Shown here: positions 5,619 to 16,940 of the stretch, piece after piece
Layout: each line of letters begins with the position of its first letter
Numbering within the stretch: the stretch's first letter is position 1
Source: Kofleriaceae bacterium
GTDB taxonomy: Bacteria; Myxococcota_A; Polyangia; Haliangiales; Haliangiaceae
NCBI GenBank assembly: GCA_022842285.1
Contig: JALHPV010000045.1
Coordinates: forward strand, 1 to 33,372
Length of the DNA stretch: 33,372 bases
Direction of reading: 5' to 3'
Made by a program: the position numbers and the translations under genes
Notes under the pieces: model-generated
Databases searched by the model: none
What the model saw: the letters and a program-made list of their open reading frames with translations, nothing else
What the model was told of the DNA's origin: nothing

Positions 5619-6746
5619 TTACCGACGAGGCGGACCCTTCATCTTCTCGGGCGCGGCGGGTCCCGCGGTCTCGGGGACCTTGATCTTGTCGGCCGGCGTC
5701 ACGCCCGAGAGCACCTCGACCTTCAAGCCGTCGGACAGCCCGAGCTTCACATCCCGGCGCACGAACACCTGAGGAGTCGTCTCGACTTCGACGTACGGCT
5801 TGTCACCCTCGTACTGGACGAGCGCTTCGCGGATCGCGAGCACGCCCTTGCGCTCCTCGAGAACGATGTCGGCGTTCGCGCTGTAGTTCGCGCGGATCTC
5901 GATGCCCTCCCGCTTCGCGACGGCGGCCTTGATCTCGAACTGGATGGCGCCGTCGATGACCTTGCCCTTGGGCGAGATGTACTCGAGCTTGCCGTCGAGC
6001 TGCTCCTTCTCGAGAGCCCCCACCTTGATCGCGAGCTTCATGCCCGTCTTGATCTTCGCGACCTCCGCCTCGTCCACCCGGCCCTCGAAGATCATGTCGT
6101 CCATGTTGGCGATCGTGGCCACGGTGGTGCCGGCGTTGAAGTTGTTCGCCTGGATCACCGAGAAGCCGACCTTCACGGGCACGTCGATCACCATGCCGTC
6201 GACCGTCGCCGTGACCACCAGCGTCGACGACTTGCCGGCGCCCCGCGTGGCCCCTTCCTTCACGAGCTGACTCTGGCTCTGCGCGGCCGCGAGCTCCTGC
6301 TTGCGCAGCGCGAACTGCGTGCGGAACTGGGCGACCTCGGCTTCGGCCACGACGCCCTTCGCGAGGAGGTCTTCGTTGCGGGCCAGCTCGCGCTTCGCGT
6401 TGTCGAACGCGATCTTCGCGCTCTGCACCGTCGACTCGGCCTGGTTGACCTGCATCGCGTCGGCGATGATGGCGATCTTTCCGAGCGCGGCGCCTTGCTT
6501 CACCTTCGCGCCCGGCTGCACGTAGAGCTCGGACAGGACGCCCGAGACTTTCGGCTTCACCTCGACCTCCTCGCGCGGGACGATCGAACCGGTCGCGACG
6601 GTCTTCTTCACGATGTCCGTCGTCTCCGAGCCCTCCGTCTCGAACACCACCGGCTTCTTCTGGGATTGCCGGTAGAGGAACGTGAACGTGGCAAGGATCG
6701 CGGCGAGCGCGAGCAGTCCGAGGAGCCAGCCAACTATCTTCTTCAT
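5619..6746 (-). CDS. HlyD/MacA-type membrane fusion protein (periplasmic adaptor)
   Basis: The protein has 375 residues. The ATG at 6746 gives MKKIVGWLLGLLALAAILAT, a single N-terminal membrane anchor; the frame is open further upstream, but that stretch lies inside the permease gene. A lipoyl-like half motif (SGVLSELYVQPGAKVKQGAALGKI) is followed by a coiled-coil hairpin (about residues 95-165, rich in A/Q/E/K) and the second lipoyl half. A beta-barrel domain follows (MIFEGRVDEAEVAKIKTGM), then a C-terminal membrane-proximal domain. The protein would link the inner-membrane permeases to an outer-membrane channel. No TolC-like gene is in the window. The gene starts 5 nt after the permease stop, so it is part of the same operon. 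The C-terminus is Pro/Lys-rich (EKMKGPPRR). Confidence 0.9.
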   Translation of the reverse strand: MKKIVGWLLGLLALAAILATFTFLYRQSQKKPVVFETEGSETTDIVKKTVATGSIVPREEVEVKPKVSGVLSELYVQPGAKVKQGAALGKIAIIADAMQVNQAESTVQSAKIAFDNAKRELARNEDLLAKGVVAEAEVAQFRTQFALRKQELAAAQSQSQLVKEGATRGAGKSSTLVVTATVDGMVIDVPVKVGFSVIQANNFNAGTTVATIANMDDMIFEGRVDEAEVAKIKTGMKLAIKVGALEKEQLDGKLEYISPKGKVIDGAIQFEIKAAVAKREGIEIRANYSANADIVLEERKGVLAIREALVQYEGDKPYVEVETTPQVFVRRDVKLGLSDGLKVEVLSGVTPADKIKVPETAGPAAPEKMKGPPRR

Positions 6747-6751
6747 AATCG

Positions 6752-8005
6752 TTACTCGGCCCGCAGGGCCTCGATGGGCTTGATCGATGCAGCGTGGGCC
6801 GCCGGCATGATGCCGGCAAGTCCACCCGCACCCACGAGCACGGCGACGGCGACGAGCGCTGTCGACAGCGGGACCTCGGGCGGGCCGAACGGCACGTTCG
6901 TGGCGTGCTCGAGCACGACGCCCGCGAGCGCGAGCAGCCCCACACCAGCGGCCATGCCCATGAGCCCGGCCAGCGCCGTCAGGACCACCGCTTCCTTCAT
7001 CACCATCGCGACGATCGAAGCCGGCGTGGCGCCGAGGGCCTTGCGCACCCCGATCTCCTTCGTCCGTTCCTTCACCGTGATGAGCATGATGTTTGACACC
7101 CCGATGACGCCGGCGAGCAAGGTCAGCATGCCGACGACCCATCCGACCAGCGCGATGGCCGTGAAGATGCCGCCGATCTTCTCGAAGACCTGGAACATGT
7201 TGAACGAGCCGATCGCGAGCTCGTCGGTCGGGCTCACGCGATGGCGCTGCTTGAGGATCGACCGGACCTGCGTCTCGACCGCCGGCCCCGCGAAGCCGGG
7301 CTTGGCCGTGAGCGCGAAGAAGCCGACCCGGTTCCCCATGTTGAAGGAGGCGCGCATCGTCGTGAACGGGACGTACACCGTCAGGGCGTCGCGCTCGCCC
7401 TCGCGGCCGGTGCGCAGCGTCTTCATCACGCCGACCACCTGGAAGTAGACGCCGCTGATCTTGATGTACGTGCCCACGGGGTCGACGTCGGGCGGGTACA
7501 GCTCGTCGCGCACGAGGTTGCCGATGACCGCGACCTTGCGCTGCTCGAGGATGTCGCGCTGGTTGATGAAGCGCCCGGCCTCGTAGCCGAAGGCAATGAT
7601 GCGCGTGAGGTCGGGATAGTCGCCGTAGACCTGGAACGAGCCGCTCTTGCTCTCGTAGGCGACCGTGAACCCGCTCTGCCAGCCGCCGAGCTGGATGCGA
7701 GGCGCGACCGCGTCGACGGCCGGCAGGCGCCGGATCGGCTCGATGTCATCCATCGTGAACTGGATCTCGCGGCCGGTCGGAAGACCGTCGTAGCTCTCCG
7801 TCGTGGCCTGCCCCCAGACGAACAGCATGTTGGTCGCGAGGCCCTTCATCTGCCGGCGGCTACCGGTCTCGAGCGAGCTCGCAAAGCCGAGCATCGCCAT
7901 GAGCATCAAGATTCCCCAGAACACGCCGAACGCCGTCAGGAACGTGCGCAGCTTGTTCGAGCGCAGCGTCGCCCAGATCTCCTTCCACTTGTCGAGATCG
8001 AACAT
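6752..8005 (-). CDS. MacB/FtsX-type ABC transporter permease (second of two)
   Basis: The protein has 417 residues. It has the MacB layout: an N-terminal membrane segment (LRTFLTAFGVFWGILMLMAM), a ~200-residue periplasmic domain, and a C-terminal FtsX domain of three membrane segments. The FtsX core contains VSNIMLITVKERTKEIGVRK and KALGATPASIVAM, the typical cytoplasmic loop that contacts the ATPase. The gene abuts the upstream permease (stop at 8006) and is followed after 5 nt by the adaptor. With its paralogue it probably forms a heterodimer that converts ATP hydrolysis into periplasmic movement. In the family, substrates include lipoproteins, peptides and macrolides; the substrate here is unknown. 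Confidence 0.9.
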   Translation of the reverse strand: MFDLDKWKEIWATLRSNKLRTFLTAFGVFWGILMLMAMLGFASSLETGSRRQMKGLATNMLFVWGQATTESYDGLPTGREIQFTMDDIEPIRRLPAVDAVAPRIQLGGWQSGFTVAYESKSGSFQVYGDYPDLTRIIAFGYEAGRFINQRDILEQRKVAVIGNLVRDELYPPDVDPVGTYIKISGVYFQVVGVMKTLRTGREGERDALTVYVPFTTMRASFNMGNRVGFFALTAKPGFAGPAVETQVRSILKQRHRVSPTDELAIGSFNMFQVFEKIGGIFTAIALVGWVVGMLTLLAGVIGVSNIMLITVKERTKEIGVRKALGATPASIVAMVMKEAVVLTALAGLMGMAAGVGLLALAGVVLEHATNVPFGPPEVPLSTALVAVAVLVGAGGLAGIMPAAHAASIKPIEALRAE

Positions 8006-9358
8006 CTACTGATCCCGCAGCGAGTGGATGGGGTTGACGCGCGCCGCGGCACGGGCGGGGAAGTAGCCGGCGAGGGCGCCGCACACGATCAGAAACACCG
8101 TCGCCGAAACGCCGGTCGACAGCTCGATGCTCGGGTTCCGGATCGAGTCCGCGGCCACGACCTTCGAGAGCAGGGCGAGCGCGCCGACGCCGCCGGCGAG
8201 CCCGAGGAGGCCCGCGATACTCGTGAGGAATACGCTCTCTTGCACGATCATCGCGACGATCGAGCCGGGCGTCGCGCCGAGCGCCTTGCGCACGCCGATC
8301 TCCTTCGTGCGTTCCTTCACCGCGATCATCATGATGTTCGAGACGCCGACGACGCCGGCCGCGAGGGTGCCGAGGCCGATCACGCCGATGAACACGGCGA
8401 TCATCCAGAAGATCTGGCCGAAGCGCTGCGCGCCCTCGACGTTGTTGCGGACGCGCGCCGCCTGCTTGTCGGTCGGGTCGAAGTCGTGCCGCGCGGCGAG
8501 CTCGGCGACGATGCCGCCCAGGATGCGCTCGGTCTCGGCGACGTCCGTCGTCGTCAGCTCCATCTCCAGCTTCCCGAGCTTGTCCTCGCCGTTGTAGGCG
8601 AGCTGCGCGGTCGACGCGGGGATGTAGATGCGGCGCTCGCTGTCGGTGCCGTTCTGGTGGGTGAACACGCCGATGACCTGGTACGGCACGCCCGCGACCT
8701 CGATCCACTGGCCGATCGGATCCTCGTCGGGCTCGAACAGGAAGTCGATGGCCGTCTTGCCCACGACGGCGGACTTTCGCTTCTGGGCGATGTCGACCTC
8801 GTTCATGAACCGGCCGGCGACCATCGTGTGCGGCTCGAGGTAGTAGCGGTTCGGATACGTGGCCTCGATCTGGAACGGGTTTGCTTTCGTGCCCCGCTTG
8901 GTCAACCACGTGCTCGCCGACTCGATGAAGTGCTCCGCGCTCGGGTGCGAGATGCCATCCTGCGCGCGCAGGTACGTGTAGTCGGCGTTCGTGAACTCGA
9001 TGCGACGGCCCACGTCGTAGCCGCCGAATGGCACGGAAGTCTTTCCGATCCGGATGAAGGCCGCGTTCGCGGACTCGCGCGAGAAGTTGAAGCGCATCGC
9101 GTTCTGCAGCCCGTTGCCGAGGCCGAGCAGGAACACGAGCACGAAGATGCCCCAGCCGACGCTGAGCATCGTGAGCATGGTCCGCAGCTTGTTGCGGCCC
9201 ATCGTGATGAAGACCTCGGTCCAGCGGTCGATGGAGACGAGGTCGCGCCCGTTCGCGGCCAGCACGAACACCATGTGCGCCAGCGCGTAGAGCACCGGCG
9301 ACAGGAGCGCGAGCACGGCGAAGGTCGTCCATGGGTGTGCTGCAATCCACGCGAGCAT
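8006..9358 (-). CDS. MacB/FtsX-type ABC transporter permease (first of two)
   Basis: The protein has 450 residues. Compared with its downstream paralogue it has an extra N-terminal hydrophobic helix (residues ~10-35) before the standard first segment (LRTMLTMLSVGWGIFVLVFL). A periplasmic MacB core domain follows, then a C-terminal FtsX domain with VSNIMMIAVKERTKEIGVRK and KALGATPGSIVAM. The near-identical FtsX loop in both permeases indicates duplication. The gene lies directly between the ATPase stop (9359) and the next permease start (8005) with no intergenic bases, so strict co-expression is expected. The extra helix would put the N-terminus on the opposite membrane side or act as an anchor; this is inference. 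Confidence 0.9.
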   Translation of the reverse strand: MLAWIAAHPWTTFAVLALLSPVLYALAHMVFVLAANGRDLVSIDRWTEVFITMGRNKLRTMLTMLSVGWGIFVLVFLLGLGNGLQNAMRFNFSRESANAAFIRIGKTSVPFGGYDVGRRIEFTNADYTYLRAQDGISHPSAEHFIESASTWLTKRGTKANPFQIEATYPNRYYLEPHTMVAGRFMNEVDIAQKRKSAVVGKTAIDFLFEPDEDPIGQWIEVAGVPYQVIGVFTHQNGTDSERRIYIPASTAQLAYNGEDKLGKLEMELTTTDVAETERILGGIVAELAARHDFDPTDKQAARVRNNVEGAQRFGQIFWMIAVFIGVIGLGTLAAGVVGVSNIMMIAVKERTKEIGVRKALGATPGSIVAMIVQESVFLTSIAGLLGLAGGVGALALLSKVVAADSIRNPSIELSTGVSATVFLIVCGALAGYFPARAAARVNPIHSLRDQ

Positions 9359-10042
9359 CTAGGCCGCCGCTTCGCCCTCGTCGTCGACGACCTTGCCGTC
9401 GCGCAGGCGGATCGTCCGCTGCGTGCGCGCCGCGACCTCAGGATCGTGCGTGACGACGAGCACCGTGATGCCCGTAGCGTGAATCTCCGACAGCAGGTCC
9501 ATGATCTGCTTGCTCGTCGTGGTGTCGAGGGCGCCCGTCGGCTCGTCGGCGAGGATCAGCCGCGGCTTGCCGATGAGCGCGCGCGCGATGGCGACACGCT
9601 GCTTCTGACCACCCGACATCTCCGACGGGAGGTGCTCGGCCCAGTCCCGCAGTCCGACCCGCTCGAGGTACTGCAGGGCCACCTGGTTGCGCTTTCGCCG
9701 CGAGACGCCCTGGTAGTAGAGGGGGAGGGCGACGTTTTCGAGCGCCGTCTTGAACGGCAGCAAGTTGAAGGACTGGAAGACGAAGCCGATGAACTTGTTG
9801 CGGTACGCGGCGGCCTTGCTCTCGGAGAGGTCCTTGATGAGCGTGTCCCCGAGGCGGTACTCGCCGCTGTCGTAGTCGTCGAGGATGCCGAGGATGTTCA
9901 GCAGCGTGGACTTGCCCGATCCGGACGCGCCCATGATGGCCACGAACTCGCCGTCCTGGACCTCGAAGTCCACATCCCGAAGCACGTGCAGGCTGTGCGT
10001 CGCGATGCGGTAGTACTTGTTGATCTTCGAGAGCCTCAGCAC
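9359..10042 (-). CDS. LolD/MacB-type ABC transporter ATP-binding protein
   Basis: The protein has 227 residues, normal for this family. Walker A GASGSGKST (38-46), Q-loop VFQSFNL (Q90), signature MSGGQKQR (142-149), Walker B LILADEP (162-168) with the family-typical TGALD, and the switch histidine VTHD (H199) are all present, so it should be an active ATPase. It energises the two FtsX-type permeases that follow without a gap. The start is a GTG at 10042, 17 nt after the [2Fe-2S] gene stop. No strong ribosome binding site is visible, so the exact start is somewhat uncertain, but MLRLSKINKYYRI matches the usual N-terminus. Confidence 0.93.
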   Translation of the reverse strand: MLRLSKINKYYRIATHSLHVLRDVDFEVQDGEFVAIMGASGSGKSTLLNILGILDDYDSGEYRLGDTLIKDLSESKAAAYRNKFIGFVFQSFNLLPFKTALENVALPLYYQGVSRRKRNQVALQYLERVGLRDWAEHLPSEMSGGQKQRVAIARALIGKPRLILADEPTGALDTTTSKQIMDLLSEIHATGITVLVVTHDPEVAARTQRTIRLRDGKVVDDEGEAAA

Positions 10043-10511: not shown

Positions 10512-10880
10512 CTAATTCGACGGGGCGAAGTTGAGCGGGTAGAGCACCTGCACGTTGCTGCTCGGCGCCTTCTCGAGCTTCTGCTTCTCGACCTCGGCGA
10601 TGATGCACTGGTTCAGCGGCGTGTCGTTCAGGTCGTTTCGCGCCGTGCGCACGTTCTTGAACTGCCCCGACGAGGCTTCGATGATGAAGTCGAGCATGAT
10701 CATGCCCTTGAGCTTGCGGTTCGCTTTCAGCGCCGTCTCGTAGCAGGCGCTGATCGGCGACTGCGTGGACTGCATCTTGGCGGAGATCGCGGTGCGGGTC
10801 TCCTCGCCCATGCCGGAGCTCTTGCACGCGCCGGCCGCGGCGACCGAGGCGAGGACGAAGAGAAGAGAGAGCTTAGTCAT
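10512..10880 (-). CDS. small lipoprotein with AgmX/PglI C-terminal-like domain
   Basis: The protein has 122 residues. MTKLSLLFVLASVAAAGAC is a lipoprotein signal (Cys19). The mature part has the features of the AgmX/PglI C-terminal domain known from myxobacterial gliding and TonB-like proteins. These are ISACYETALKANRKLKG, a central beta strand (MIMLDFIIEASSGQ), then NQCI and a C-terminal LYPLNF. The paired cysteines of CY and CI are typical. The start overlaps the end of the OmpA-like gene by 8 nt in a different frame, and the gene ends 2 nt before the [2Fe-2S] gene. A role at the cell wall or outer membrane with the OmpA-like lipoprotein is likely; a link to motility is not shown. Confidence 0.82.
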   Translation of the reverse strand: MTKLSLLFVLASVAAAGACKSSGMGEETRTAISAKMQSTQSPISACYETALKANRKLKGMIMLDFIIEASSGQFKNVRTARNDLNDTPLNQCIIAEVEKQKLEKAPSSNVQVLYPLNFAPSN

Positions 10881-11394
10881 CCTGCACCACCGTCTTCTTG
10901 GGGCCCTGCTTGGTGATGTTGAACTCGACGCGGCGATTGACCTCGCGGCCCACCTCGTCGTCGTTGCTGGCGAGAGGACGATCCGGGCCGAAGCCCTTCG
11001 CGACCATGCGCGACTTCTTCACGCCCTTCTTCTCCAGGTACTTCACCACCGAATCCGCGCGCCCCTGCGAGAGCTTGCGGTTGATGTTCGCGCTCCCGGT
11101 CGAGTCGGTGTGACCCTCGATCTGGATCTCCTCGATCTGCTCGTTCTGGAGCAGCACCGTGGCGACCTCGTCGAGGAGTCCGAACGACGCGGGCAGGATC
11201 TCGGTCTTGCCGACCTCGAACTGCACCTTGTCGGCGATCGTGATGCTCGACGCCGTCAACACCACGCGGGCCGGGCCCGGAGGCGGACGTGTCGCGGTGA
11301 TGTCGAGAGGGGGGAACGGATCCTGCTGGACCGTGAACAGCGAGCAGCCGGACGCCCCGGCCGCCAGGATCGCTGCGAGAAGAGCTCGTCGCAT
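10873..11394 (-). CDS. OmpA/Pal-family peptidoglycan-associated lipoprotein
   Basis: The protein has 173 residues. MRRALLAAILAAGASGC is a lipoprotein signal (Cys17). After a Pro-rich linker (27-42), the OmpA C-terminal domain spans ~50-165. It includes IEGHTDSTGSANINRKLSQG with D97 and R112, the residues that bind diaminopimelate in OmpA/Pal, and the closing NRRVEFNI strand. It would tether the outer membrane to peptidoglycan. It is the first gene of the long minus-strand series. The neighbouring plus-strand GST start is only 27 bp away, so the promoter must lie in or overlap the short divergent gap. Confidence 0.92.
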   Translation of the reverse strand: MRRALLAAILAAGASGCSLFTVQQDPFPPLDITATRPPPGPARVVLTASSITIADKVQFEVGKTEILPASFGLLDEVATVLLQNEQIEEIQIEGHTDSTGSANINRKLSQGRADSVVKYLEKKGVKKSRMVAKGFGPDRPLASNDDEVGREVNRRVEFNITKQGPKKTVVQDD

Positions 11395-11421: not shown

Positions 11422-12096
11422 GTGATCAAGGTCCACCACCTGGAAATGTCGCGCTCGACGCGTGTGCTCTGGATGCTCGAAGAGCTGGAGCTGCCCTACG
11501 AGATCGTGAAGTACGCTCGCGACCGAGAGACCAGTCTCGCGCCCAAGGAGCTCGAGGCGATCCATCCGCTGGGGAAGTCCCCTGTCATCGTCGATGGCAA
11601 TACGACCATCGCGGAGTCGGGGGCGATCCTCGAGTACCTCTCCGATACCTACGGCAAGGGCCGGTTCGTGCCCGAGGCCGGTACGCAGGCGTACCGCGAC
11701 TACCGCTACTTCATGCACTACGCGGAAGGGTCGCTGATGCCGTACCTGCTCCTGAAGCTCGTGTTCGTCCGCATCGCGAAGGCGCCGGCGCCATTCTTCG
11801 TGCGGCCCATCATGAAGCAGATCAGCAGCAAGCTGCAGCAGATCGTCGCGGACCCGAACATCCGCCGGCATCACGACTTCCTGGCCAAGCACCTCGAGAC
11901 GCACACGTGGTTCACCGGCGATCAGCTCACGACCGCTGATATCCACATGAGCTATCCGATCGAGGCGCTCGTCGAGCGAGGCGGACGCGACTTCACGAGC
12001 TCACCGCACCTGAAGCGGTGGCTCGATGCGGTCCGTGCCCGACCAGCGTTCCGGCGCGCTGTCGACCGCGGTGGCCCGATCATGCTCGAGGTCTAG
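11422..12096 (+). CDS. glutathione S-transferase family protein
   Basis: I start at the GTG at 11422 (224 aa), which gives MIKVHHLEMSRSTRVLWMLE, the usual first beta strand plus helix of bacterial GSTs. The next ATG (11446) would remove that strand, and the longer upstream frame runs through the divergent gene. The thioredoxin-fold N-terminal domain has HPLGKSPVI (cis-Pro) and the glutathione-contact ESGAILEYL. The C-terminal all-helical domain has TADIHMSYPIEAL, corresponding to the conserved N-cap/hydrophobic staple region. The protein probably acts in the cytoplasm on electrophilic substrates. It is transcribed alone, divergent from the OmpA-like gene. Its stop codon shares bases with the convergent kinase stop. 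Confidence 0.92.
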   Translation: MIKVHHLEMSRSTRVLWMLEELELPYEIVKYARDRETSLAPKELEAIHPLGKSPVIVDGNTTIAESGAILEYLSDTYGKGRFVPEAGTQAYRDYRYFMHYAEGSLMPYLLLKLVFVRIAKAPAPFFVRPIMKQISSKLQQIVADPNIRRHHDFLAKHLETHTWFTGDQLTTADIHMSYPIEALVERGGRDFTSSPHLKRWLDAVRARPAFRRAVDRGGPIMLEV

Positions 12097-14706
12097 CGAC
12101 TCACGTTCCACAGTGACGCGGAGCCGTCGAAGGCATCGACGAGCAGCGTCGAGCCGTCCGGCGAGAGTTGCACGGTCGCCACGCGGCGGCGGTGCGCATG
12201 CAGGACGTCGAGCTCTCGGCCGGTCTCGGTGTCCCACACCCGGGCCGACCCGTCAGTATGCCCGGTGAATATGAGAGCCCCATCCCGGGAGAGCTCGTAC
12301 GCGCCCTGTACCGCCGATGGCACCGACGCGCGAGGCTTCTGGGCAGGCCCGACGGAGAATAGCTCGATTGCGCCATCTTCGTTCTGGACGGCGAGCACGC
12401 GTCCATCCGCCGACAGCTCGACGCTCTCCTCGTACTCGCGGCTGGGCTGGGCCGCGCCGACCTCGGCGCCGGTCCGGCCGTCGTGCACCGTCACGCGTCC
12501 ACCTTGGCGCTCGAAGAGGACGAAGTGTCCGGAGGGCCCGGCGGAGATCTCCGACGCGACGGCTACAGGGTCGGTGGGCAACGTTCGAGCGGCGAGCGTC
12601 GCCGTCGACCAGGCGGCCCAGCCCCCCTTGGAGACGCCGGCGATGAACTCGCCAGCGCTGGGGCCGAACGTCGGGTCCAGCGGCGAGCCGAAGCTCGGAA
12701 ATGTGCGCTCGACCAGGACGGCGCCGGAGGTCCCGTCGAGGACGCGCACGACGTCCTCGTCGTCGCTGGCGATCAGCACGGCGCGGGTGCCGTCGGGCGA
12801 GATCGCCATCTCGTCCGCAGGGTGGGTGGTGAGCGTGCGTCCCGAGGGAAGCTCGACCAGCGCCACGCGGTTGTCCGCGCGGTCCGCCGACCTCGCCAGG
12901 AGCCGCCGGCCATCGGCGCTGGGTAGCCACGCACCCGTGGGGAACGAGAGGACGTCGCGGTCATCGTTCCCGCTTAGGTCGTGCGACCGGATCGAGCCAT
13001 CGTCGTTCGCGACGAGGACGCGGTCCCCGACCATGCGCACCACGTCCGAGCTCGAGAGGCGGCGCACGAAGTTCCCGAGGGGCAGATCGAAGGTCACGAC
13101 CTGGTGAGCCTCGACATCATCGCTCGCGAACTGCATGCCGAGCGCATCCCAGCGCACGTCGCCCCAGCCGCCGAGCACGCGGACCTGGCGCGTGAGCCCG
13201 GGGACCCGCCAGACGACCAGCTCCGTTCCGGTTGTCGCCGCGAGGTGCTCGCCAATCGGATCGAAGCGGAGCTCGAACGCTCGTCGCGGGAGACGCTGCG
13301 TTGCGAGCAACACCCCGTCCATCGACCATAGCCGTACGGTGCCGTCCCCGGTGGCAGTGGCCACGAGCCCGACGGGGGGCGCCACGTCGAGCCGGGTCAC
13401 CTCGGCGCCATGCCGTAGCTCCACGAGCGTGGGCGGGGCCGAGCTCATGTCGATGACCGCGGTGTGCTCCTTGGTCGTGAGCACGAGGTGGTCGGCGTCG
13501 AGAAACTTGATGTCCGTCGCGTCGGGCCAGGCCTGCCAGCGTGCACGCACGACGAGCGAGCGGGCGTCGAAGACGGTCACTTCACCGTCATCGCTCGCGA
13601 TGGCGAAACGCTCCCCCCGCGCATCGAAGTGCATCGCCGCCACGGGCCCGGATAGCGTCACCTCGCCGCGCCGATCGCCCGTTGCGGGATCGATGGCGAC
13701 GACGATCGAGGCACCGGGTGCCGACACCAGCAGCAGCTGGTCATCCGGCGCGAGCCGGAAGTTGATGCTCTCGTCGTCGACCGTGTTCGTATCGATGCGC
13801 CACTGCTCGGCACCGGTGCGCAGGTCCCGGCGCACGAGGTGCTCCGATGCGATGTACGCGACGAGCCAGGATTCGTCGGTCGAGACGGCCGCGGCGAACA
13901 CGCGTCGGCCAAAGGTCGTCACGACCTGGGGGCCACGGCGGACGGAGCCATCGTCACCGACCACGAGCGGTGGCCGGGCGGGCGAGGGTACGAAGTCCAC
14001 GGCGAGCTTCGAGGGCGTGGCCGCGCGTCGCACCAGCGTCGGGCCACGGCTGGCCGAGGCAAGCAGGTATCGCAGCGCGGGCGTGTCGTGTCCCCGATCG
14101 AGCGCCTGCTGGAGGAGCTGGCGCGCCCCGTCGCGATCACCGGCGAGGTAGGCCACGCGCCCTTGTTCCTCGAAAGCGGCCGCCTCGCCCGCGAGCGCCT
14201 CCGCCCGCGCGGCGCGACTCTCGTCGAGCGCGGCCTCCGCCGCTTCGCGAGCGGCCTGCTCCGTCGCTTGCGAGCGCGTGACGTTCACGATCGCGATCGC
14301 GCCGACGATCGCGATGGCCACGACCGCGACCGCGCTCGCCGTGACCACGGCGCGGTGCTTGCGGATCCAGCGCCCGACAAGCTCGCGCACCCCGTACGAC
14401 CGGGCGATGAGCTGACCCGATTCGAAGCGGCGAAGCTCCGCCGCCATCTCGCGAGCGTTCGGATAGCGATCCGCGGCCCGATGCGCCATCGCCCGCTCGC
14501 AGATCACGCACAGGTCCGCGGGAGCGTCCGGGGCGAGCATGGCGATCGGCCGCGGCGGCCCGGCCACCGTGCGGGCCATGATCGCATCCCCATCCTGGTT
14601 CGGGTCGTGGTACGGCGGGACGCTGGCGAGGAGGGTGTAGAGCATCGCGCCGAGGGCAAACACGTCGGCGCGCTCGTCGATCTCGTCGCCGCGGGCCTGC
14701 TCGGGG
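12093..14706 (-). CDS. C-terminal half of frameshifted Ser/Thr kinase: kinase C-lobe, membrane segment, WD40-like propeller
   Basis: This frame continues the kinase begun in the next entry, after a one-base shift near 14702-14706. It resumes with EQARGDEIDERADVFALGAM (kinase subdomains VIII-IX) and goes on through the C-lobe (CERAMAHRAADRYPNAREMA). A membrane helix follows (AVVTASAVAVVAIAIVGAIA), then an Ala/Glu-rich coiled coil with a possible TPR-like segment (GRVAYLAGDRDGARQLLQQA). About 600 residues of repeated beta motifs complete it, such as TGDGTVRLWSMDG, TGHTDGSARVWDTETG and FDGSASLWNVS, i.e. WD40/YVTN-like blades predicted on the far side of the membrane. The frame stays open to the natural TAG at 12093, so the tail is intact. 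Without frame restoration it has no start of its own at the right place. The frame is open up to 16178, but the part upstream of 14706 is a shadow. Confidence 0.83.
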
Positions 14707-15544
14707 ACATGAAGCCCGGCGTGCCCATCACCGAGCCGGCGCGGGTGAGGTCTGGGTTCGAGCGCGGGAGCCGTGGCTGGGACGTGGAGGCGTCGGCGGC
14801 GTCGTCGACGTACTTCGCGAGGCCCCAGTCGATCACGACGGTGTCGCCGAGCTCGCCGACGAGGACGTTCGTCGTCTTGAGATCGCGGTGCAGCACGCCG
14901 CGACCATGCGCGTAGGCGATGGCTTCGACGGTCGCGACGAGGTGGTGCAGGAGACCGAGCCGCTCGCGCAGGGAGGTCGTGGCGTCGATCGCGGCTTGCA
15001 GCGTCGCGCCCTCGACGAGGCGCATCGAGTAGAACGCGGTGCCATCCGGCCACGTGCCGGCGTCGTAGATGGGCACGATCGCGGGGTGCTGGAGGTGCGA
15101 GGTGATCAACGCTTCGCGCTCGAAGCGTTCGCGCAGGGTCGGGTCGAGGATCTCCTTCAGGGCGACGGTCCGCCCCAGCCGGCGGTCGATCGCGAGCGAG
15201 ACGCGCCCCATGCCCCCACGTGCGAGCTCCTGTTTGACGGAGAACACGGCCGGGTCCGTCACCGCAAGCTGAGGCTCGTCGAGGCTGGCGGCGGGGACCC
15301 GGACGAGCCAGCGCCAGCTGTCCAGGTCGTCGGTGGCTACCTCCGCGGCCTGCCGGCAGCGGGGGCACGTCCTCAGGTGCTGGGCGAGCTGCGCCAGCTC
15401 CCGTGGCTCCAGGCCCTGGGACTCGCGCATCGCGAGGTAGAGCTCGGCGACGTCGCATTCGATGGAGGGCGTGGGGGGACCCTCGTCCCGGGTGGCGAGC
15501 CCCGAGGTAGTATCCGTAGCGGATGTGGGACGGTCTCTTGGCAT
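14504..15544 (-). CDS. N-terminal half of frameshifted Ser/Thr kinase: HC2-type zinc finger and kinase N-lobe/catalytic loop
   Basis: This is a Hanks-type kinase. After a Ser/Thr-rich start comes ELAQLAQHLRTCPRCRQAAE, an H-x3-C-x2-C pattern as in anti-sigma HC2 zinc fingers. The kinase follows, with the Gly-loop ELARGGMGRVSLA, VALKEI (Lys), the catalytic loop HRDLKTTNVL, a DWG in place of DFG (VIDWGLAK) and GTPGFMSP. At that point the frame goes wrong: the expected SPEQARGDE reads SPSRPAATR, and about 66 out-of-frame residues follow until the stop at 14504. As sequenced, this gives a truncated 346-residue kinase without the C-lobe or sensor. The intended product, with one base restored, would be about 1150 residues (12093-15544). 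The start is 40 bp from the divergent ECF sigma gene, suggesting the kinase controls that sigma factor. Confidence 0.83.
   Translation of the reverse strand: MPRDRPTSATDTTSGLATRDEGPPTPSIECDVAELYLAMRESQGLEPRELAQLAQHLRTCPRCRQAAEVATDDLDSWRWLVRVPAASLDEPQLAVTDPAVFSVKQELARGGMGRVSLAIDRRLGRTVALKEILDPTLRERFEREALITSHLQHPAIVPIYDAGTWPDGTAFYSMRLVEGATLQAAIDATTSLRERLGLLHHLVATVEAIAYAHGRGVLHRDLKTTNVLVGELGDTVVIDWGLAKYVDDAADASTSQPRLPRSNPDLTRAGSVMGTPGFMSPSRPAATRSTSAPTCLPSARCSTPSSPASRRTTTRTRMGMRSWPARWPGRRGRSPCSPRTLPRTCA
14702..14706 (-). other. apparent one-base deletion (frameshift site) in kinase gene
   Basis: On the minus strand the codons ATG TCC CCG AGC AGG appear where the family requires M-S-P-E-Q-A. Adding one base in the C-run (GGGG at 14703-14706 on the plus strand) restores E-Q-A-R-G and joins the two kinase halves exactly. 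It may be a sequencing or assembly error in the short homopolymer, or a recent mutation. No slippery-sequence signal is evident. Confidence 0.75.
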
Positions 15545-15584
15545 GCGGGGGCTCGCTGGACGGTAGCCACGCGTTCGGCGCCCT

Positions 15585-16283
15585 ATGATCAGCTGGGACG
15601 AGGTCGCCCGTCAGCTTCGCACGGTGGCCGAGCAGGCGGGGGAAGGATGGCCCGCCGCGCAGGCGGTCCTGCATCCAGAGCTCGTGCGGCTCGCGCGGCG
15701 ACAGCCGATCGGGCGCCTGCGAGGCGATGTCGACGCCGCCCACGAGGTCGCAGCGCGGGTGCTCGAGCGGATCTGTGCCCACGACTTCCGGGCGTTGAAG
15801 CGCCTCTTCGAGACCGATCGCGAGCCCGTCGTGCAGGCGTGGATCCGGGTCCTGGTCCGGACGGCCGCCATCGACGTGATGCGCCAGCACAGCGAGTACC
15901 GGCGCGGCACCTCGCGCGAGGAGCCTGGCTGGGTCTCGCTCGCGAGCCTGGTCACCAGCCCCGGTTCTCCCCAGCCGAGCCTCGTCCAGAAGCAGCAGGA
16001 GCTCGAGCGCTTCCTCGCGAGTGCACTGCAGCAGGTGGCGGCCACGATCGAGACCCACGGTGACGATGCGACGACCGTGCTCGCGGCGCGCTGGCGCGTC
16101 GAGCCGCTGCACGTGCGGCGGGCGCAGACCAAGGGCGACCGCTACCTCCCCGTGCTCAAGCTCGTGCTCGCCGGTCACTCCTATCCGGAGGTCGCAAAGC
16201 AGCTCTCGCTGACCCGCCGCGAGGTGGAGCTGGTGATCCAGTACATCGAAGAGCTCGTGTCCGCGCGCGGGTTTCCCCAGTAG
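15585..16283 (+). CDS. ECF-like RNA polymerase sigma factor (kinase-linked)
   Basis: The protein has 232 residues, starting from an ATG at 15585. The region-2-like part spans ~45-108 (RGDVDAAHEVAARVLERICA, then WIRVLVRTAAIDVMRQHSEY). A long middle segment follows, then a region-4-like helix-turn-helix (HSYPEVAKQLSLTRREVELV). Region 2 is divergent from classical RpoE-type factors, which is common in sigma factors paired with Ser/Thr kinases. It is transcribed divergently from the zinc-finger kinase with only 40 bp between start codons. Phosphorylation or zinc-finger-mediated control by that kinase is therefore likely but inferred. No classical anti-sigma gene is adjacent. It ends immediately before the stop of a second ECF sigma gene on the other strand. 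Confidence 0.8.
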   Translation: MISWDEVARQLRTVAEQAGEGWPAAQAVLHPELVRLARRQPIGRLRGDVDAAHEVAARVLERICAHDFRALKRLFETDREPVVQAWIRVLVRTAAIDVMRQHSEYRRGTSREEPGWVSLASLVTSPGSPQPSLVQKQQELERFLASALQQVAATIETHGDDATTVLAARWRVEPLHVRRAQTKGDRYLPVLKLVLAGHSYPEVAKQLSLTRREVELVIQYIEELVSARGFPQ

Positions 16284-16940
16284 TCAGTTCTTCAGCGGAA
16301 CCCAGAGCCCGTATTCGCCGAGGGCACGGGCCAGCTCGGCGGAGACATCACGCTTGCGCTGGAGCTTCGCCGGCGCCATCGACTCCATCAGGCGGCGCCG
16401 CGCCTCGTGCATGCGCCACGCGATCGTGCCTTCCGAGACGTCCTGCACGACCGCGACCTCGCCGTGGGACATGCCCTGCAGCGACACGAGGATGACGGTG
16501 GTGCGCATCTCGGCGGGGAGGCCGTCGAGCGCCCGCAGGAGGCGCGCGTAGGTCTCGCGGAGCTCGGTCGCCTTCGCCGGATTGGTACGCGAGTCGACCT
16601 GCACGGCGAGCTCGACGATGTCCTCGATCGAATCCTCGCCGCGGCGCAGGCGGTCCCGCTTCGCATTGAGCGCGCGGTTCACGGTCATCCGGTAGACCCA
16701 CGTGAAGAACTGACTGCGGCCCTCGAACTGGGGCAGGGCGCGATACGCCTTCAGGAACACGTCCTGCGTGATGTCGTCGGCCTCCGACGCCGAGCCGCTG
16801 ATGTGCAGCGCGAGCGCAAAGATGCGCTTGCGATACCGCGTGACCAGCGCGTCGAATGCGCGCGGATCGCCCCCCCGGGCCGCGTCCACGAGGGCATTCG
16901 CGGTCGCCGCTTCGCGCTGGGCTGCGGTCAGATGGGACAC
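16284..16940 (-). CDS. ECF RNA polymerase sigma factor (RpoE-like)
   Basis: The protein has 218 residues. It has a canonical ECF architecture. Region 2 includes ALVTRYRKRIFALALHISGS, DDITQDVFLKAYRAL and FFTWVYRMTVNRALNAKRD. Region 4 includes LPAEMRTTVILVSLQGMSHG, and the recognition helix is within VSEGTIAWRMHEARRRL. The start is a GTG at 16940 preceded by AAGGGAAC; an ATG 15 nt upstream is in another frame. It lies 57 bp after the CAP-domain lipoprotein on the same strand. That gap contains a short AT-rich stretch (around 16970-16990) that could hold a promoter, but I see no convincing -35/-10 pair. No anti-sigma factor is encoded next to it in the window. Confidence 0.93.
   Translation of the reverse strand: MSHLTAAQREAATANALVDAARGGDPRAFDALVTRYRKRIFALALHISGSASEADDITQDVFLKAYRALPQFEGRSQFFTWVYRMTVNRALNAKRDRLRRGEDSIEDIVELAVQVDSRTNPAKATELRETYARLLRALDGLPAEMRTTVILVSLQGMSHGEVAVVQDVSEGTIAWRMHEARRRLMESMAPAKLQRKRDVSAELARALGEYGLWVPLKN

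Follow-up and report, generated by a model that had tools for sequence, protein, structure and literature searches.

The results of this study indicated that a contig of a Kofleriaceae bacterium (JALHPV010000045.1, 33,372 nucleotides, analysed over its whole length and hereafter called the window; contig C45 of a draft genome of 7.9 Mb in 550 contigs) carries a divergent gene pair that probably encodes a sigma factor of the extracytoplasmic function (ECF) type and its membrane receptor, the receptor being a zinc anti-sigma (ZAS) factor with a Hanks kinase domain and a WD40 sensor. The data bear out the domain content, a finger of ZAS character, a partner of ECF character and a link between the two genes that has been kept in evolution; from these we infer the binding, the direction of control, the phosphorylation target and the signal. 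The sigma-like gene encodes 232 aa on the plus strand, and the kinase gene extends over 12093-15544 on the minus strand. Their starts, at 15585 and 15544, leave the 40 bp that an initial annotation, made from the DNA alone, had described between the kinase gene and a divergent ECF-like gene. Relatives of the pair were found in Myxococcales/Deltaproteobacteria assemblies.

The initial annotation had pointed to an H-x3-C-x2-C motif, HLRTCPRC, typical of anti-sigma HC2 fingers, at the beginning of the kinase. The motif is present at residues 56-63 of the kinase open reading frame (ORF) (15356-15379, minus strand), and a fourth possible ligand, Cys30, lies 25 residues upstream. All four ligands (Cys30, His56, Cys60 and Cys63) were invariant in 15 homologues, so that loss of the motif among homologues, named beforehand as an outcome contrary to the proposal, was not seen. 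The search with the zf-HC2 hidden Markov model (HMM) that had been proposed as a check exceeded the gathering score of 22.2 with the isolated N-terminus (22.7 bits) and with the six-frame translation of the genome (23.2 bits), but the whole first ORF scored just below it (18.9 bits). The same model matched 13 of the 15 homologues and scored 38.7 bits (E=1.2e-8) with a sister kinase of the same genome. When a profile of the finger was compared with all PDB chains, the matches came in the order RslA (E=5.6e-4), DdvA (7e-4), RsiW (0.003), a CHAT-domain protein and ChrR (0.018). The AlphaFold model of the finger (predicted local distance difference test score, pLDDT, 79.8) matched RsiW best, with a template modelling (TM) score of 0.62-0.69 and a Z of 7.0 over 67 residues, and RslA was second in the Z-ordered list (Z 4.8). 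Judged from its sequence and model, the finger looks like a ZAS domain.

The strongest single argument for an anti-sigma origin of the kinase N-terminus came from loci in which the kinase is missing. At L196 and L198, the gene after the sigma gene encodes two fingers, then a hydrophobic helix and an outer region, which carries PEGA repeats in L196 (Pfam); the corresponding protein at L206 combines two fingers and a helix with a TPR-like region, and that at L168 has one finger and a helix (all these helices were read from the sequence). At L205, a short one-finger ORF overlaps the sigma ORF on the same strand. Four kinases (L045, L046, L050 and L117) have two successive H-x3-C-x2-C modules, and among 2200 ORFs this double-finger module gave a full-length match to the kinase-less L196 protein with E=2e-10, and matched the kinase-less proteins of L205, L198 and L206 with E-values of 2.4e-7, 1.1e-6 and 0.0016. 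On these alignments the double finger is homologous between the kinases and the kinase-less proteins, and the kinase N-terminus thus appears to share descent with anti-sigma modules. Since the kinase-less versions (L196, L198 and L206) imply that the finger module is presumably able to work alone, they would also suit a plain anti-sigma factor, in which the finger sequesters the sigma factor, release follows another route and the kinase serves other substrates. However, kinase and sigma divergence correlate, as described below, and finger-less kinases also stand beside sigma genes of the same family; we consider this arrangement improbable.

The ECF-like nature that the initial annotation had ascribed to the divergent neighbour was borne out. 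The window protein matched TIGR02937 with E=1.7e-4 and 21.3 bits, below the curated cut-off of 42.9, while all 14 members examined of its family matched this model (best E 3.8e-6) and seven of the 14 matched TIGR02984, the Planctomycetaceae-specific subfamily 1 (best E 8.3e-8). The window protein is strongly diverged, and a Pfam scan of it gave no sigma domain match; among the 14 members, weak matches to Sigma70_r4_2 and Sigma70_r2 were obtained in six and three, respectively. Profile-profile comparison of the family with the ordinary ECF proteins of the same genome gave a probability of 85% and E=5.8e-6 over 147 columns. Searching the PDB chains with the family profiles gave no significant full-length sigma match; fold comparison did better. 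The best fold matches of the AlphaFold model (pLDDT 80.6) were ECF sigma factors, its residues 1-110 matching the sigma2 domain of SigC (Z 10.6), SigW (Z 10.1) and RpoE (Z about 10 and root-mean-square deviation 2.5-3.0 for these sigma2 matches, 2.5-2.8 for SigC and SigW). The model also has a C-terminal helix-turn-helix (HTH), and its top 30 fold matches were all sigma factors. The linker between the two parts carries the motif W-x-S-L-A-[ST]-L, which holds candidate phosphosites.

Linkage was counted across 42 loci in which a gene of the sigma family occurs. In 27 of the 42 loci, a kinase domain lies within 702 bp of the sigma domain, and 20 of these 27 kinases had an H-x3-C-x2-C finger ahead of the kinase domain. 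The order of the two genes was divergent, tandem or convergent depending on the locus, which argues that the link has been kept through rearrangement. The pair has stayed together in many relatives, whereas its separation in related genomes had likewise been named in advance as contrary to the proposal. Since the genome of the window has about 95 kinase-profile matches in 7.9 Mb, chance adjacency is estimated at a few per cent per locus. Besides, the distances among the sigma factors correlated with those among the kinases (r=0.49 for the 27 pairs; r=0.55 for the 20 finger pairs and also for the 14 closest; permutation p<0.002). The sigma family was found mostly in the taxonomic family of the window (18 of 23 positive genomes), and L199 holds a pair of finger-kinase and sigma genes from another taxonomic family. 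In genome G008, one contig ends in the N-terminus of the sigma factor and another starts with its C-terminus just upstream of a double-finger kinase gene. A scan of genome contigs with the window sigma factor gave no match; a second contig scan used the related sigma clade B as its query.

Several observations weigh against a working pair of sigma factor and ZAS-type kinase receptor. Shared descent and species history inflate the count of linked pairs as well as the correlation of distances. The Foldseek E-values of the sigma model were weak (best 0.015, for an ECF sigma factor), and the fold matches of the finger, with Z below 8 and none at or below 0.001 in Foldseek, are suggestive and not significant by E-value. 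Canonical sigma factors use a Gln/acidic pair in region 2.2 to bind RNA polymerase, and this pair is lost in the family: in the register given by the profile-profile comparison with ordinary ECF proteins, Gln occurs in 0 of 14 members and the acidic residue in 1 of 14, the window protein having Ala57-Arg58. Since the pair is missing, we call the protein ECF-type and not a canonical ECF sigma factor. The degenerate region 2.2, together with the missing Pfam sigma match of the window member, would fit a decoy or an adaptor of the PhyR kind in place of a working sigma factor. This seems most unlikely, as sigma2, an HTH at the position of sigma4 and the conserved linker are all kept and some relatives give weak Pfam matches to Sigma70_r2 or r4.

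The same loss recalls the ECF43 sigma factors, which are without the acidic DAED motif (PMC8999054), and seven of the sigma-linked kinases (L043, L047, L162, L164, L170, L200 and L036) have no finger. Nor did the 2.5 kb around the sigma genes of these seven loci reveal a finger on an ORF of its own; L043 and L047 have hydrophobic N-termini. Both features would be expected of an ECF43-like switch, in which the kinase is a pure activator that phosphorylates an intrinsically inactive sigma factor so that it binds RNA polymerase, and the finger is a docking site or a relic. On the other hand, the family alignment has no conserved Ser/Thr at the ECF43 phosphosite position, the four finger ligands are invariant, and beside related sigma genes the place of the kinase is taken by finger proteins that have no kinase domain. 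We regard such a switch as rather unlikely, though less so than a plain anti-sigma factor. The kinase-less and finger-less loci thus indicate that finger and kinase may each be absent from a given locus, and the two are joined in most.

Finger kinases also occur apart from sigma genes. In the genome of the window, the fetched flanks of at least seven other finger kinases, on C2, which is the closest paralogue of the window kinase, and on C142, C352, C251, C37, C79 and C156, gave no sigma match, some of these contigs ending nearby. Since such kinases are common, the presence of a finger does not by itself imply a partner sigma factor, and the finger is a wider feature of these kinases. The one on C142 (L041) has a different tail and lies behind a HEAT-repeat-like gene, which suggests that a core of finger and kinase is joined to a variety of sensors. 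The frequency of finger kinases without a neighbouring sigma gene, and the match of the HC2-like stretch to a CHAT-domain protein in the PDB, would agree with a finger that is a generic adaptor of myxobacterial kinases, with the sigma neighbour incidental. Against this stand the 27 of 42 sigma relatives that have an adjacent kinase despite the rearranged gene order, and the kinase-less finger proteins that occupy the same place; we give this explanation very little credence.

The last point against the pair as a working receptor system is the state of the kinase gene in this contig. The Hanks kinase, membrane helix and WD40-like blades that the initial annotation had listed were all recovered, with one strong helix (Table 1), and the proposed HMM search of the kinase tail against WD40 gave E=9.7e-18. 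The catalytic motifs of the kinase are GGMGRV (Gly loop), VALKE (Lys), HRDLKTTN (HRDLKxxN) and IDWG (DWG). The statement that these parts follow in one polypeptide did not hold, since the reading frame changes by one base at the CCCC run. The first ORF leaves the frame after ...GTPGFMSP, coding resumes in the other frame from EQARGDEIDERADVF..., and the remainder of the kinase gene lies in this second frame from 12093 to about 14717. After the break the frame is open to its natural end, with a third-position GC of 0.82-0.94 in every 300-base block, and the homologues L040 (1257 aa), L033, L045 and L176 are intact in a single frame throughout. Because the codon structure downstream is intact and the homologues are in frame, the frameshift probably arose either by error, in sequencing or assembly, or by mutation in the recent past. 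Programmed frameshifting at the CCCC site was considered and rejected, as the homologues need no shift and nothing else spoke in its favour. Because of the frameshift, this copy may not work. The anti-sigma-like receptor that the initial annotation had proposed is partly supported: the finger and the linkage speak for it, and the split copy, the sigma-less finger kinases and the seven finger-less kinases qualify it.

Based on the preferred reading of a ZAS-type receptor with a kinase domain, it is hypothesised that the pair works as described below. The Hanks kinase domain has the putative sigma-binding finger on one side and the membrane helix on the other, and the WD40 region outside would be the sensor; kinase inside and WD40 outside is the arrangement predicted for comparable planctomycete kinases (PMC11032199). 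At rest, the cytoplasmic finger would hold the ECF sigma factor encoded next to it. A signal received by the propeller would alter the kinase, which might then phosphorylate the held sigma factor, its own finger and linker, or both, and phosphorylation would release the active sigma factor. Precedents are the zinc anti-sigma factors, some sigma factors that are set free when their anti-sigma factor is phosphorylated (PMC8999054), and the ECF43 sigma factors, which a kinase encoded nearby activates (PMC8999054; PMC13147305). The chemistry of ECF43 does not recur here, as its phosphosite position has no conserved Ser/Thr. As a more tentative extension, for which we see a possible but not a preferred place, the fused receptor might both grip its sigma factor, which would in itself be a weak binder of RNA polymerase, and license it chemically, the finger presenting it to the kinase of the same molecule so that release and activation become one step.

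The coordinates of the features are collected in Table 1. An ordinary ECF sigma factor gene of the SigM/RpoE-like kind (16284-16940, minus strand), absent from the initial annotation, lies tail-to-tail with the atypical sigma gene; its product has the region 2.2 Gln-Asp intact, and the gene is not kept beside the pair in relatives. It was tried as the kinase partner and rejected, as no relative of it was found in any of the first 20 fetched loci at E<=1e-4, while in most of these the kinase still had the atypical sigma gene next to it. A CAP/SCP-domain protein (PF00188; 17001-17846, minus strand) is encoded upstream of this ordinary ECF gene. Near the end of the kinase gene are genes for an OmpA-family protein (10876-11394, minus strand) and a glutathione S-transferase homologue (11422-12093, plus strand). 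Genes for an HlyD-like membrane fusion protein, a MacB/FtsX-type permease and an ATP-binding cassette (ABC) ATPase, likely an export operon, occupy 5622-10042 on the minus strand. PADLOC returned only generic kinase matches and thus no sign of a role in defence.

Table 1 Features of the sigma-kinase locus (positions in the window).
Feature	Position	Strand	Basis or remark
Divergent ECF-type sigma factor, 232 aa	15585..16283	+	TIGR02937, fold matches; start backed by aligned homologues
Sigma2, linker and sigma4-like HTH	sigma2 about 15585-15914; HTH about 16104-16265	+	Parts of the sigma gene
Motif W-x-S-L-A-[ST]-L in the sigma2-sigma4 linker	15930..15950	+	Residues 116-122; 7/7 in closest clade
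Intergenic gap between the two divergent starts	15545..15584		40 bp (sequence)
Kinase gene, first ORF as sequenced	14504..15544	-	346 aa: zinc finger, most of kinase domain, out-of-frame tail
ZAS-type zinc finger C-x25-H-x3-C-x2-C	15356..15457	-	Cys30, His56, Cys60, Cys63 of kinase
Hanks-type Ser/Thr kinase domain	14409..15241	-	Pfam PF00069 E=2.6e-22; broken by frameshift at PE motif
Frameshift site, CCCC run	14703..14706	-	Frame changes relative to in-frame homologues
Single predicted transmembrane helix	about 14277..14351	-	Peak hydropathy of 2.6 (19 residues)
WD40/beta-propeller C-terminal region, predicted periplasmic	12096..13838	-	PF00400 E=9.7e-18, ANAPC4_WD40, PQQ_2

Textbooks give two ways in which ECF sigma factors are controlled: a zinc anti-sigma factor sequesters them, or a Hanks kinase phosphorylates them. 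Here, one protein beside the sigma factor appears to join the two. The open-access literature that was searched describes no fusion of a ZAS domain with a Hanks kinase that is paired with a sigma factor, subscription papers lying outside the search; the domain combination of finger and kinase may well be visible in database annotation. Kinase-less finger proteins, finger-kinase fusions and finger-less kinases form a natural series beside one sigma family. By means of this series one could examine how sigma factors came under the control of kinases in evolution; it could also address the control of kinase-linked sigma factors outside ECF43, which a 2022 review describes as open (PMC8999054).

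The pair resembles the ECF43 pairs EcfP-PknT and EcfK-PknS in that the sigma gene adjoins a Hanks kinase gene and the core-binding motif of region 2.2 is not of the usual form. Unlike in those pairs, no Ser/Thr is conserved here at the phosphosite, and the kinase has an anti-sigma-type finger and WD40 blades; the paper on EcfK-PknS mentions neither zinc nor WD40. Control by a neighbouring Ser/Thr kinase, as proposed here, has also been predicted for the groups ECF59, 61, 62, 217 and 283 (PMC8999054). A cytoplasmic kinase, a single membrane helix and periplasmic WD40 repeats are shared with the WD40/TPR kinases of myxobacteria and planctomycetes, for which the accessible part of the source mentions neither a zinc finger nor a linked sigma gene (PMC11032199). 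Like the class I ZAS proteins RsiW, RslA, ChrR and the myxobacterial DdvA, the window kinase has an N-terminal, predicted cytoplasmic finger of the form C/H-x~25-H-x3-C-x2-C, a membrane helix and outer domain further on, and a gene beside an ECF-type gene; unlike in them, a full Hanks kinase domain separates its finger from its membrane helix.

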